39,626 nucleotides of DNA, taken from Bacteroidales bacterium. Lineage in GTDB: Bacteria > Bacteroidota > Bacteroidia > Bacteroidales > UBA7960. Within the stretch, counting starts at the first letter, position 1, and the number at the start of each line of letters is the position of its first letter. A program made the position numbers and the translations under genes. This document shows, one piece after another, positions 135 to 12,060 of this stretch. The notes beneath the pieces are model-generated. The model worked only from the letters and a program-made list of their open reading frames with translations, ran no database searches and was not told where the DNA came from. The stretch spans positions 1 through 39,626 of the forward strand of contig SKSE01000057.1 in the NCBI GenBank assembly GCA_007118135.1, written 5' to 3'.

Positions 135-1442
135 TTACCTGAGATACGCTTTAGCTCCAAGCCCTATAAGTTCACCAATGGGGCGACAGTCAGGTGAAAG
201 GATATCCTGGTTCTGGTTGAAGGCAATGGAACCGCAACCACCTCCACAAATCAGTTGCAGGTTGCAGTCGTGGCATTTTTCAATGTGCATTATATCTCGT
301 TGTTGCCAGCGTTCGATTTTTCTATCAAACAGTTCAACCTTCGGATAGAAGCTGCCGAGTTTTTCGCCGGGTTTACCCACCGTTGCCGTGCAGGAATATA
401 TGCTACCTGTATAATCCATAGCCCATTCGCTTTTGCAGGCAGGACAAGCATCGAAAAGGGGCTTGGGAAGCTCTCCACTTTCCTGCAGAAATTTCATAAC
501 TGAAAATGCTGGTTTATGGAACCGTATGATCTGTGGGTGCTTTTTAATAAGCCCCAACAACTCCTGATAAAGGGAGAGCCGGTTAAAAAGTCTGGATTTG
601 CCATCCTGGCAATAGTGCAATTCGTAATTTCTACCAATCTGGGTTTTGAACAGGGGATGGTCGGCCCAGCCTTTTTCAATGGCAAAATCTGCAAGGGCAG
701 GCAGTTCATCAATATTATCAAGGTCAACGACCATGCGGAGATTAACGGGTATTTGTTTCTGCAGACAGGCATCAATATTTTCCACAATTTTATCAAAGGT
801 AGGACTGTTGTTCTTCAGTTTCCTGCGGCGATTATGAGCTTCGCGGGTGCCATCGAGAGTTACCTGTATTTCACGGGTAAAGGCAGGATCCAGAATATCA
901 ATATACTTTTCCAGAAAATAACCATTGCTTACCAAGGCAATATCCAGTTGAGCGCCCACGGCCTTTTCTATGAAATAGGAGAGGCTTTCCTTGTAGGTTT
1001 GGGAGTTCAGAAGGGGCTCTCCGCCAAAAAGGGTAATGTATTTTTTTCTGTGGACAAACTGTTTCCCGATAAATGCAAAGAAGGCATCTGTTATTTCCTT
1101 TGAAAACGCAAGATTTTTATCGGGGTAGCCGCTTTGGTAACAATAAGAGCAGGTGAAATTACATGCATAGGTGGGAACAAAGAAAAGTTGCATTTCCTCC
1201 TTTTCCCTTTCTTCAAGAAATTCAATATACTTCAGGCGATAATCGATATCTTCTTTCTGCGGGTCAGCAACATAACCTTTTTCAATAAAATCGAGGGGGT
1301 AGTTTCTGTTAGCGGGATGGTTCAGAAGCGAAAGTTCTTCTTCCGAAAGTATATCAGCACTTCCGGATAAAGCATTAACAATAATGTGTTCTTTGCCTTC
1401 TCTAACAGTTGCAATGATGTTGTGCTTCGAAGGTTTAAGCAT
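135..1442 (-). CDS. Radical SAM/SPASM peptide maturase-like protein
   Basis: ORF 435 aa. CNFTCSYC (CxxxCxxC) radical SAM motif. C-terminal SPASM pattern Cx9Gx4C (CKSEWAMDYTGSIYSC), then CHDCNLQLICGGGC (Cx2Cx5Cx3C) and a final C (SPDC). Confidence 0.93.
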   Translation of the reverse strand: MLKPSKHNIIATVREGKEHIIVNALSGSADILSEEELSLLNHPANRNYPLDFIEKGYVADPQKEDIDYRLKYIEFLEEREKEEMQLFFVPTYACNFTCSYCYQSGYPDKNLAFSKEITDAFFAFIGKQFVHRKKYITLFGGEPLLNSQTYKESLSYFIEKAVGAQLDIALVSNGYFLEKYIDILDPAFTREIQVTLDGTREAHNRRRKLKNNSPTFDKIVENIDACLQKQIPVNLRMVVDLDNIDELPALADFAIEKGWADHPLFKTQIGRNYELHYCQDGKSRLFNRLSLYQELLGLIKKHPQIIRFHKPAFSVMKFLQESGELPKPLFDACPACKSEWAMDYTGSIYSCTATVGKPGEKLGSFYPKVELFDRKIERWQQRDIMHIEKCHDCNLQLICGGGCGSIAFNQNQDILSPDCRPIGELIGLGAKAYLR

Positions 1443-1473: not shown

Positions 1474-1578
1474 TTAATCGTGGCAGCCTACCTGGTTGGG
1501 AGATAATTTGGCGCAACACTGTGCCTGTTTTTTGTCTGTATTAACTTTCTTTGGTGCTTTTTTTATGAGAGTCTTCAT
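1474..1578 (-). CDS. Putative RiPP precursor peptide, 34 aa: MKTLIKKAPKKVNTDKKQAQCCAKLSPNQVGCHD
   Basis: Hand translation of the minus strand between the methyltransferase and the maturase. Lys-rich N-terminal half and C-terminal CC...GC segment. Starts 31 nt upstream of the radical SAM start codon. Below the ORF-track length cutoff. Confidence 0.72.
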   Translation of the reverse strand: MKTLIKKAPKKVNTDKKQAQCCAKLSPNQVGCHD

Positions 1579-1665: not shown

Positions 1666-2304
1666 TTACAAGGCTTTTTGCCCTTTAATGGTAAAACTGC
1701 TAACTTTTATTTTACCCTTTTCATAAGGTACCGACTCTTCCAGAATATCAATACTTTTAAAACCGGCATACTTAAGATTGCGAAAATACTTCTCTTTTGT
1801 TTCAGCACCCGCCCAGCATTCTGCAACAGCTTCGGGGTCGTTGCGGTAGTGGTCAGGAACCTCTTCAAGGGCATAAATATCACTCACCACAAAAGTTCCG
1901 CCGGGCTTCAATATCCTGAATATTTCCTTCCATACTTTACCCTGATTCAGGCTGTGGTTAATGGTGCAATTGGAAAGAACCAAATCCAGTGAATCATCGG
2001 GCAGGTCAATGTTTTCCAGTTCGCTCTTAATAAACGAAGTATTGCTGAGGTTGAGTTTTCGGGCATTTTCCCTGGCAGTCTCCATCATAGATTCTGAAAC
2101 ATCCACACCCCAGGCAAAACCTTCTTGTCCTGCCAGAGTAACCATCTTTAATACGTCAAAACCTTTACCCGAACCCAGGTCGGCACAATGGAAACCGGGT
2201 TTTATTTCTGCAAAGTTTATTGCGCCACCACAGGAAAGGCAACACTCCTGACCGGATAGTTCATCGTATCGAACAGATATTGCTTTGGTGAAATTGTCTG
2301 ACAT
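1666..2304 (-). CDS. ArsM-like SAM-dependent methyltransferase
   Basis: Class I methyltransferase motif CADLGSGKGFD. ArsM-like cysteine contexts VLSNCTINHS and AECWAGA, plus N-terminal ECCLSCGG. Confidence 0.85.
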   Translation of the reverse strand: MSDNFTKAISVRYDELSGQECCLSCGGAINFAEIKPGFHCADLGSGKGFDVLKMVTLAGQEGFAWGVDVSESMMETARENARKLNLSNTSFIKSELENIDLPDDSLDLVLSNCTINHSLNQGKVWKEIFRILKPGGTFVVSDIYALEEVPDHYRNDPEAVAECWAGAETKEKYFRNLKYAGFKSIDILEESVPYEKGKIKVSSFTIKGQKAL

Positions 2305-7160: not shown

Positions 7161-8483
7161 ATGGAATACATAAAGAACAGATTTTACGAATCCGCACTCA
7201 AAAAATACGATGAGTTTCTCAAATTAAAAAAACAACACTCTGACGTAGTATTAGGGAAAGTAACCATCGGACATGTTTTAACAGGTATGAAGGGTGTTCC
7301 AAGTCTTCTGACCGAAACTTCCAAACTCGATGCCAACGAAGGTATACGTTTCAGAGGTGTTTCTTTGAAAGAATTACGAAAAACCATTCCACGCTTGTGT
7401 GAACACGGAGAGCCTTTGCCTGAAGGTTTGTTTTATCTGATGCTTATTGGCGAAGTTCCTGAACTGGATGATATAAGCAATATCAGCAAGGACTGGGCTA
7501 GCAGGGCAATCGTACCACAACATGTTTTTGATGTAATAGAATCCATGCCCAAAAATTCGAGACCCATGGCTCAATATGTGGCAGCCATAACGAGTATGGC
7601 CTCCGATTCTTACTTCCTCAATGCACATCAGGCTGGTATTCATAAAAAATATTACTGGGATTCAACCTACGAAGATGTGATGAATCTTATTGCCCGCTTG
7701 CCCAGAATAGCTGCTTATATTTACCGTCGCTCTTTCCATAAGGGAGAACATATTGATCCGGATCCCAGACTCGACTGGGCGGGCAACTTTGCCCATATGA
7801 TGGGATTTAGTGCACCTCCTCATAAGAGACTTATGCGACTTTACCTTAGTATTCATGCAGACCATGAAGGAGGCAACGTGTCAGCACATACAACACACCT
7901 GGTGGGGTCAACACTGGCCAATCCATATTACGCATATGCAGCAGGTATGCTGGGTCTGGCTGGTCCGTTACACGGGTTTGCCAATCAAAATGTACTAAAC
8001 TGGATTCTTGATATGATACGAGACCTTAATGATGAAGATCCGTCGGAGGAAAGAATTCAAAGATATGTTAAGAGATTTCTGGATGATGGTGGTGTTATCC
8101 CGGGCTATGGCCATGCAGTATTACGCATAACAGATCCGAGATATGAAGCGCAGAGGGAGTTTGCAGATAAGTTTATAAAAGAAGACAACCTGGTAAATAT
8201 TGTAATCAAACTTTATAATGTAGTTCCGCCTCTGCTCGAAGCCACCGGTAAGGTAAAAAATCCGTGGCCCAATGTGGATGCATTTAGTGGTACACTTTTG
8301 CGTTACTACGGTATTAAGGAACACCAGTTTTATACGGTTATGTTTGGAATCTCCAGGGCTCTGGGTGTGTTATCATCTCTGCTTTTCGACCGCGTTTTCG
8401 GATTACCCATCGAACGTCCTACTTCCTATCCTTTGCAATGGTACAAGGATGTAGCAGAAGGAAAAATCAAACTGGATTTATAA
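7161..8483 (+). CDS. Citrate (Si)-synthase, eukaryote-like type
   Basis: 440 aa. GMKGVPSLLTETSKLDANEGIRFRG, SIHADHEGGNVSAHTTHLVGS, GPLHGFANQ, PGYGHAVLRITDPRY. Confidence 0.95.
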   Translation: MEYIKNRFYESALKKYDEFLKLKKQHSDVVLGKVTIGHVLTGMKGVPSLLTETSKLDANEGIRFRGVSLKELRKTIPRLCEHGEPLPEGLFYLMLIGEVPELDDISNISKDWASRAIVPQHVFDVIESMPKNSRPMAQYVAAITSMASDSYFLNAHQAGIHKKYYWDSTYEDVMNLIARLPRIAAYIYRRSFHKGEHIDPDPRLDWAGNFAHMMGFSAPPHKRLMRLYLSIHADHEGGNVSAHTTHLVGSTLANPYYAYAAGMLGLAGPLHGFANQNVLNWILDMIRDLNDEDPSEERIQRYVKRFLDDGGVIPGYGHAVLRITDPRYEAQREFADKFIKEDNLVNIVIKLYNVVPPLLEATGKVKNPWPNVDAFSGTLLRYYGIKEHQFYTVMFGISRALGVLSSLLFDRVFGLPIERPTSYPLQWYKDVAEGKIKLDL

Positions 8484-11622: not shown

Positions 11623-12060
11623 TCACTCCTGTATTAACTTCCAACCATATTTTTTCATAAAAACATCAATTTCTTCAGAAAAAGTGATATGCTTATGTTT
11701 GTCTTCCTGTGAGTGAATATAATTTCTGACTTCAGCAACATGGCTTTCACTAACTCCCACTGCCCAATAATCATCTTGCCAGGCAAACTTCCCTTTGACC
11801 AGTTTGTTTTTATTTATCCAGAATGAAGATTCACCTTTGATAAGCCTTGCTACATCACTAATATTTTGTTTTACTCCTAATGAAACTAAACAGTGAATAT
11901 GGTCATGATAGCCATTAACACAATCCAGCCAAATATCTTTTTCTTTAGCGTTCAGTTTAATGTGTTCAAACACTTTGAACCGCAATTCCTTGGAAGATAA
12001 AAAAGGGGTTCTGTTTTTGGTTGAAAATACATAGTGTACATAAACTCTTACCCAACTCAT
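11623..12060 (-). mobile_element. IS200-like Y1 transposase / REP-associated tyrosine transposase (RAYT)
   Basis: 145 aa. HYVFSTKNRTPFL, GYHDHIHCLVSL (HIH of the HUH motif), VRNYIHSQEDKHK with candidate catalytic Tyr. Flanked on both sides by palindromic repeats. Confidence 0.9.

Follow-up and report, generated by a model that had tools for sequence, protein, structure and literature searches.

Mycofactocin and PQQ derive from short precursors whose core is fixed across phyla, and both rely on a radical SAM (rSAM)/SPASM maturase equipped with an RRE; the mycofactocin core is also located at the C-terminus. RiPPs that serve as weapons usually have diversifying cores. The CteA/CteB system, a SCIFF peptide and its thioether maturase (5wgg, 5why), likewise consists of a leader/Cys-core peptide encoded beside a SPASM rSAM enzyme with an N-terminal RRE, a layout that resembles that of the locus described here, in which the RRE is only putative. 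This locus lies in a window of 39,626 nucleotides, the whole stretch of DNA that was analysed, from a Bacteroidales bacterium, and it is centred on a 34-aa peptide without annotation. The initial annotation had read this peptide as a candidate RiPP precursor, and the call is now well supported by the conserved ORF, its linkage to the maturase and selection at the protein level, all of which were observed directly, as were the gene itself and its cysteine sites; chemistry and function are inferred. As a whole, the best explanation, held with good confidence, is that the ORF encodes the precursor of an rSAM-modified peptide, and the system is regarded as an rSAM RiPP-like family that has not been described before and whose partners are unusual.

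The peptide gene and its conservation

The initial annotation had placed the 34-aa peptide on the minus strand, 31 nt from an rSAM gene and 87 nt from a methyltransferase gene. Translation of positions 1474–1578 (minus strand) returned exactly MKTLIKKAPKKVNTDKKQAQCCAKLSPNQVGCHD*, and both spacings are correct, as the rSAM gene starts at 1442 and the methyltransferase gene ends at 1666. ORFs of about 34 codons are numerous in the ORF listing of the window, so that conservation becomes the deciding evidence for a peptide gene, and by this measure the small ORF is real and conserved far beyond chance. Sixty relatives were searched with the rSAM protein as the query, ignoring the peptide, which gave 25 true orthologues (51–88% identity, >500 bits), every other match reaching 54 bits or less. 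All 26 full or near-full orthologues, counting that of the window, are preceded by an ORF ending in CCAK-x6-GCHD-stop at most ~110 nt upstream. Among 394 genomes of the order, 50 carry the peptide motif, the 48 genomes with a maturase are all among these, and a reversed-pattern control returned no match in the same 394 genomes. G316, one of the two motif-only genomes, contains the start of the maturase on a 2.5-kb contig; in G072, which is 99% complete, the peptide is present and no maturase of this family was found. A maturase-first search of a phylum-wide sample found the peptide with 4 of 4 maturases other than that of the window, the occurrence at this level being sporadic (5 of 249 genomes).

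Selection on the gene was measured among 11 genus-level copies, in which pN/pS is 0.05 in the core (C-half) versus 0.38 in the leader half (N-half), and none of which carries a frameshift or a stop. As the synonymous sites of these copies are highly diverged and the pN/pS of the core is only 0.05, selection acts on the protein. Two outcomes had been named that would defeat the precursor call, namely homologous maturases lacking a small ORF and absence of purifying selection on the peptide, and neither occurred: the ORF accompanies 26 of 26 maturases of the window and its relatives and 48 of 48 in the order sample, and purifying selection is strong at the protein level.

The alignment of 157 distinct peptides, together with pN/pS, delimits a C-terminal core of 16 residues, AQCCAKLSPNQVGCHD in the window (1477–1524, minus strand), with the consensus AQCCAKxSx4GCHD at the exact C-terminus. 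In this alignment A, CC, A, K and GCHD are invariant (the first A in 157 of 157), Q is kept in 154 and S in 150. The search pattern for the collection itself required CC, the A behind it and GCHD, and in only part of the searches K as well, but it placed no demand on the first A, on Q or on S. The leader-like N-half (1525–1578, minus strand) is Lys-rich, begins with MK(S/T)L(I/V)KK, mostly spans 14–30 residues and is variable past its start, with extra Cys in some Paludibacter-like and Anaeromyxobacter leaders. The leader/core layout proposed at the outset is therefore found in the family as well, as a variable, K-rich N-half followed by 16 near-invariant residues. Neither selenocysteine or Trp in place of the three Cys nor tandem copies of the peptide were seen in the loci collected by that stage. 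The peptide frame of two loci (L087 and L190) lacks an ATG and offers only a GTG near the core, so that the start codon or the assembly is uncertain there.

One genome per GTDB species was scanned for CCA-x7-GCHD-stop, which gave at least 120 stretches, 80 of which were turned into loci. All 80 stretches read encode a small peptide of the same design, typically of 30–47 residues, with a K-rich leader and the AQCCAKxSx4GCHD end. They belong to Bacteroidales, Cyclobacteriaceae, Ignavibacteria, Spirochaetia, Myxococcales, Anaeromyxobacter, Hydrogenedentota and Marinamargulisbacteria, and the peptide is thus present in at least five phyla (Bacteroidota, Ignavibacteriota, Spirochaetota, Myxococcota and Hydrogenedentota). 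Because metagenome bins make up most of these genomes, individual taxon labels may be wrong; the broad spread stands. Phyla are intermixed in the maturase tree while the peptide core stays fixed, a pattern compatible with transfer within the limits set by bins and old paralogy. Such constancy of the core over several phyla suggests a conserved role in the cell, comparable to the cases of PQQ and mycofactocin. Two of the carriers, Anaeromyxobacter soli and A. oryzisoli, are cultured isolates, which brings genetics and mass spectrometry within reach.

Partner enzymes and gene neighbourhood

The maturase (435 aa, 135–1442, minus strand) is an rSAM/SPASM protein by its PF04055 domain, its sub-threshold NCBIfam matches and the CteB-like fold of its AlphaFold2 model (pLDDT 93). 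The SPASM cysteine pattern is complete, as the initial annotation had judged, and conserved: the rSAM CxxxCxxC motif (C94, C98 and C101; 1140–1163, minus strand) and seven Cys of the SPASM region (C333, C351, C390, C393, C399, C403 and C419; 183–455, minus strand) are invariant in 45 homologues, with a further SPASM-region residue, C336, kept in 29 of the 45. C278, located before the SPASM region and outside both motifs, is also invariant in these homologues, possibly as a ligand of a cluster or as a catalytic residue. The N-terminal residues ~1–82 (1197–1442, minus strand) form a putative RRE-like (PqqD-like) domain; the full-length CefB/TIGR04463 models align over it, and in the AlphaFold2 model its three strands and helices are ordered as in a PqqD-like RRE. 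This assignment rests on the order of secondary structure only, with no leader-binding data and no domain-level comparison. The best solved matches of the model (CteB, anSME, TigE, ChlB and SuiB) are peptide- or protein-modifying SPASM enzymes, CteB (5why/5wgg) being the closest by both sequence and fold.

On the other side of the peptide, positions 1666–2304 (minus strand) encode a SAM methyltransferase of 212 aa that is ArsM-like by structure alignment and Cys conservation. It aligns with ArsM/AS3MT structures (5evj, 4kw7 and 4fr0) across the SAM domain and retains the three As(III)-binding Cys: C25, C113 and C163, invariant in 43 homologues, align with CmArsM C72, C174 and C224, which have been reported as the arsenite-binding residues (PMC3877260). 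It is, however, about half as long as these enzymes and has an extra near-invariant CC (C21, C22 and also C40 are nearly invariant in the 43 homologues), and it falls below the arsenite methyltransferase cut-off (180 bits for the window protein and 180–201 bits overall, versus 263; PRK11873). Neither pump nor reductase families of arsenic resistance are among the neighbour families listed for the 77 loci scanned, which weakens the arsenic reading and leaves it as only one option. Arsenite methylation is itself inferred, and the target could also be antimony, selenium, reactive sulfur or the peptide, by S-methylation.

The usual order of the cassette is ArsM-like methyltransferase, peptide, rSAM and a thioredoxin–thioredoxin reductase (Trx-TrxR) fusion. 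Near those peptides with enough flanking sequence, the rSAM gene was found in 59 of 63 cases, the methyltransferase in 66 of 72 and TrxR in 38 of 42. The methyltransferase is therefore not incidental and belongs to the cassette, as does the Trx-TrxR fusion in most lineages. In the window's own family the fusion is not adjacent to the cassette, and a search for its orthologue in the window's own genome gave only weak partial matches. Gene order is different in Myxococcota, in which Trx and TrxR are sometimes separate genes and the set is either together or has its rSAM elsewhere in the genome, as in those Anaeromyxobacter genomes whose rSAM does not adjoin the peptide. The conserved cassette includes no gene for a protease, peptidase or exporter. 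Recurrent neighbours among the 77 loci are DUF1847 (11), DUF302 (7), DUF6132 (6) and MarR regulators (5).

Several individual loci show further features. In some Bacteroidales, a TonB-receptor-like protein or a thioredoxin-like lipoprotein is encoded between the methyltransferase and the peptide; in one group (L204, L058–L060, L090 and L102) the TonB-receptor-like protein directly precedes the peptide, which hints at the uptake of something related. An ArsR-like winged-helix regulator was noticed by eye ahead of the methyltransferase in L199 (−1768 to −1480, counted from the peptide), and several Spirochaetes have MarR regulators (Pfam) in its place. The locus of the 99%-complete genome without a maturase of this family (L194; G072:C3, peptide at 7661) is surrounded, as judged by eye, by HdrA/HdrC-like proteins, a DsrE-like lipoprotein, a different class I methyltransferase, a Fur-like regulator and a peroxiredoxin. 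L196 (G345:C7, peptide at 7680) is a second copy without an adjoining maturase in a genome that also has a full cassette (L197), and its neighbours are Trx, TrxR, a DUF302-like protein and what seems to be the alternative methyltransferase noted in L194. Elsewhere in the window, a 145-aa ORF (11623–12060, minus strand) resembles by eye an IS200-type transposase.

It could be argued that the peptide is an unmodified small thiol or metal-binding protein, like a mini-metallothionein or a redoxin, and that the rSAM enzyme acts on another target in the pathway. Its three invariant Cys and C-terminal His-Asp would suit metal or metalloid binding, the Trx-TrxR and ArsM-like partners agree with such a role, and one genome has the peptide and no maturase. 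Nevertheless, a maturase without the peptide was never found in the 394 genomes, and both a SPASM neighbour with an RRE-like N-terminus and the split in rates between leader and core are hallmarks of a precursor, so this alternative is improbable. The pairing of peptide and maturase is held with high confidence, the modification itself being inferred.

A second possibility is that the system is an ordinary SCIFF, PapB ranthipeptide, CefB or TIGR04463 member that merely scores low with NCBIfam. The best models, CefB, TIGR04463 and PapB, all take their names from Cys-containing peptides or have a link with them. Their scores for the maturase are nonetheless far below the curated cut-offs (CefB, NF038107, 165 of 600 bits; TIGR04463, 138 of 525; PapB, NF047865, 124 of 340), as is that of SCIFF (TIGR03974, 84 of 425), and divergent members of the family likewise remain below them. 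In addition, the peptide matches no NCBIfam model, its core stays fixed from one phylum to the next, and we know of no Trx-TrxR or ArsM partners in any of those four systems. Ordinary membership is thus very unlikely; the maturase belongs to none of the named families tested and behaves like that of a SPASM RiPP system. Finally, a translational leader (a Cys-codon attenuator or uORF) controlling the rSAM gene would account for a short ORF that in most genomes precedes the maturase by 0–110 nt and for its consecutive Cys codons, but it is rejected as scarcely credible on gene order and codon data, because in several Myxococcota the peptide adjoins Trx/TrxR with the rSAM on the opposite strand or further away, and because selection acts on amino acids that include A, K, G, H and D with synonymous sites free to vary.

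Proposed mechanism and function

As the peptide is nearly always located beside the same rSAM and ArsM-like enzymes in at least five phyla, it is very probably a substrate for modification. In the proposed model, the RRE-like N-terminus of the maturase would hold the K-rich leader, and the enzyme would modify the C-terminal core AQCCAKxSx4GCHD. That the maturase acts on the peptide, and does so at Cys, is a probable inference, Cys modification being unproven. The modification would most likely be a cross-link derived from Cys, of the thioether type that CteB, the nearest structural relative, forms, although for this chemistry the inference stands at even odds. With no protease or exporter in the conserved cassette, the peptide may act unprocessed. 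Given this lack of an exporter or peptidase and a core that shows no diversification, the product is probably not a bacteriocin.

The product is more probably a thiol peptide of fixed structure. It might have a role in cytoplasmic thiol redox or metalloid handling, its thiols being kept reduced by Trx-TrxR, and the methyltransferase might use a trithiolate-bound metalloid, or else the peptide, as its substrate. Such a thiol or metalloid role is inferred and can only be advanced tentatively. It is possible, though still doubtful, that environmental bacteria of at least five phyla share a ribosomally made, rSAM-built thiol peptide of fixed structure that works in the manner of a cofactor, carrying or binding a metalloid or a reactive sulfur species, and that has an ArsM-like methyltransferase and a thioredoxin reductase of its own. 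The association with a dedicated Trx-TrxR and with an ArsM-like enzyme whose metalloid site is intact offers a direct and testable lead.

Comparison with described systems

Literature searches found neither the core motif AQCCAK nor a description of an rSAM, arsenic and RiPP system, nor any description under Cys-every-fifth, TIGR04463 or DUF1847; these absences are weak, as subscription journals were mostly not covered. The motif is also absent from the main text of PMC10352776 and PMC9062424. Seven SPASM Cys have been reported for CteB and QhpD (PMC10352776), and the number in CteB matches that of the window maturase. Identity to CteB in the fold alignment is, however, only 17–19%, and the window system differs from CteA/SCIFF in its three-Cys core, its fixed GCHD end and its methyltransferase and Trx-TrxR partners. 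CefB (NF038107) and TIGR04463, the best-scoring families, align over nearly their full length and are paired by name with Cys-rich peptides, but the window core does not have the Cys at every fifth residue for which the CefB peptides are named. PapB (NF047865) is likewise a SPASM maturase for Cys peptides and is matched over most of its length; in this case, the window core has a single acidic residue, the C-terminal Asp, and no repeated Cys-Asp pairs. Mycofactocin and PQQ, whose overall design is similar, differ from the window system in an unrelated core sequence and in other partner enzymes.
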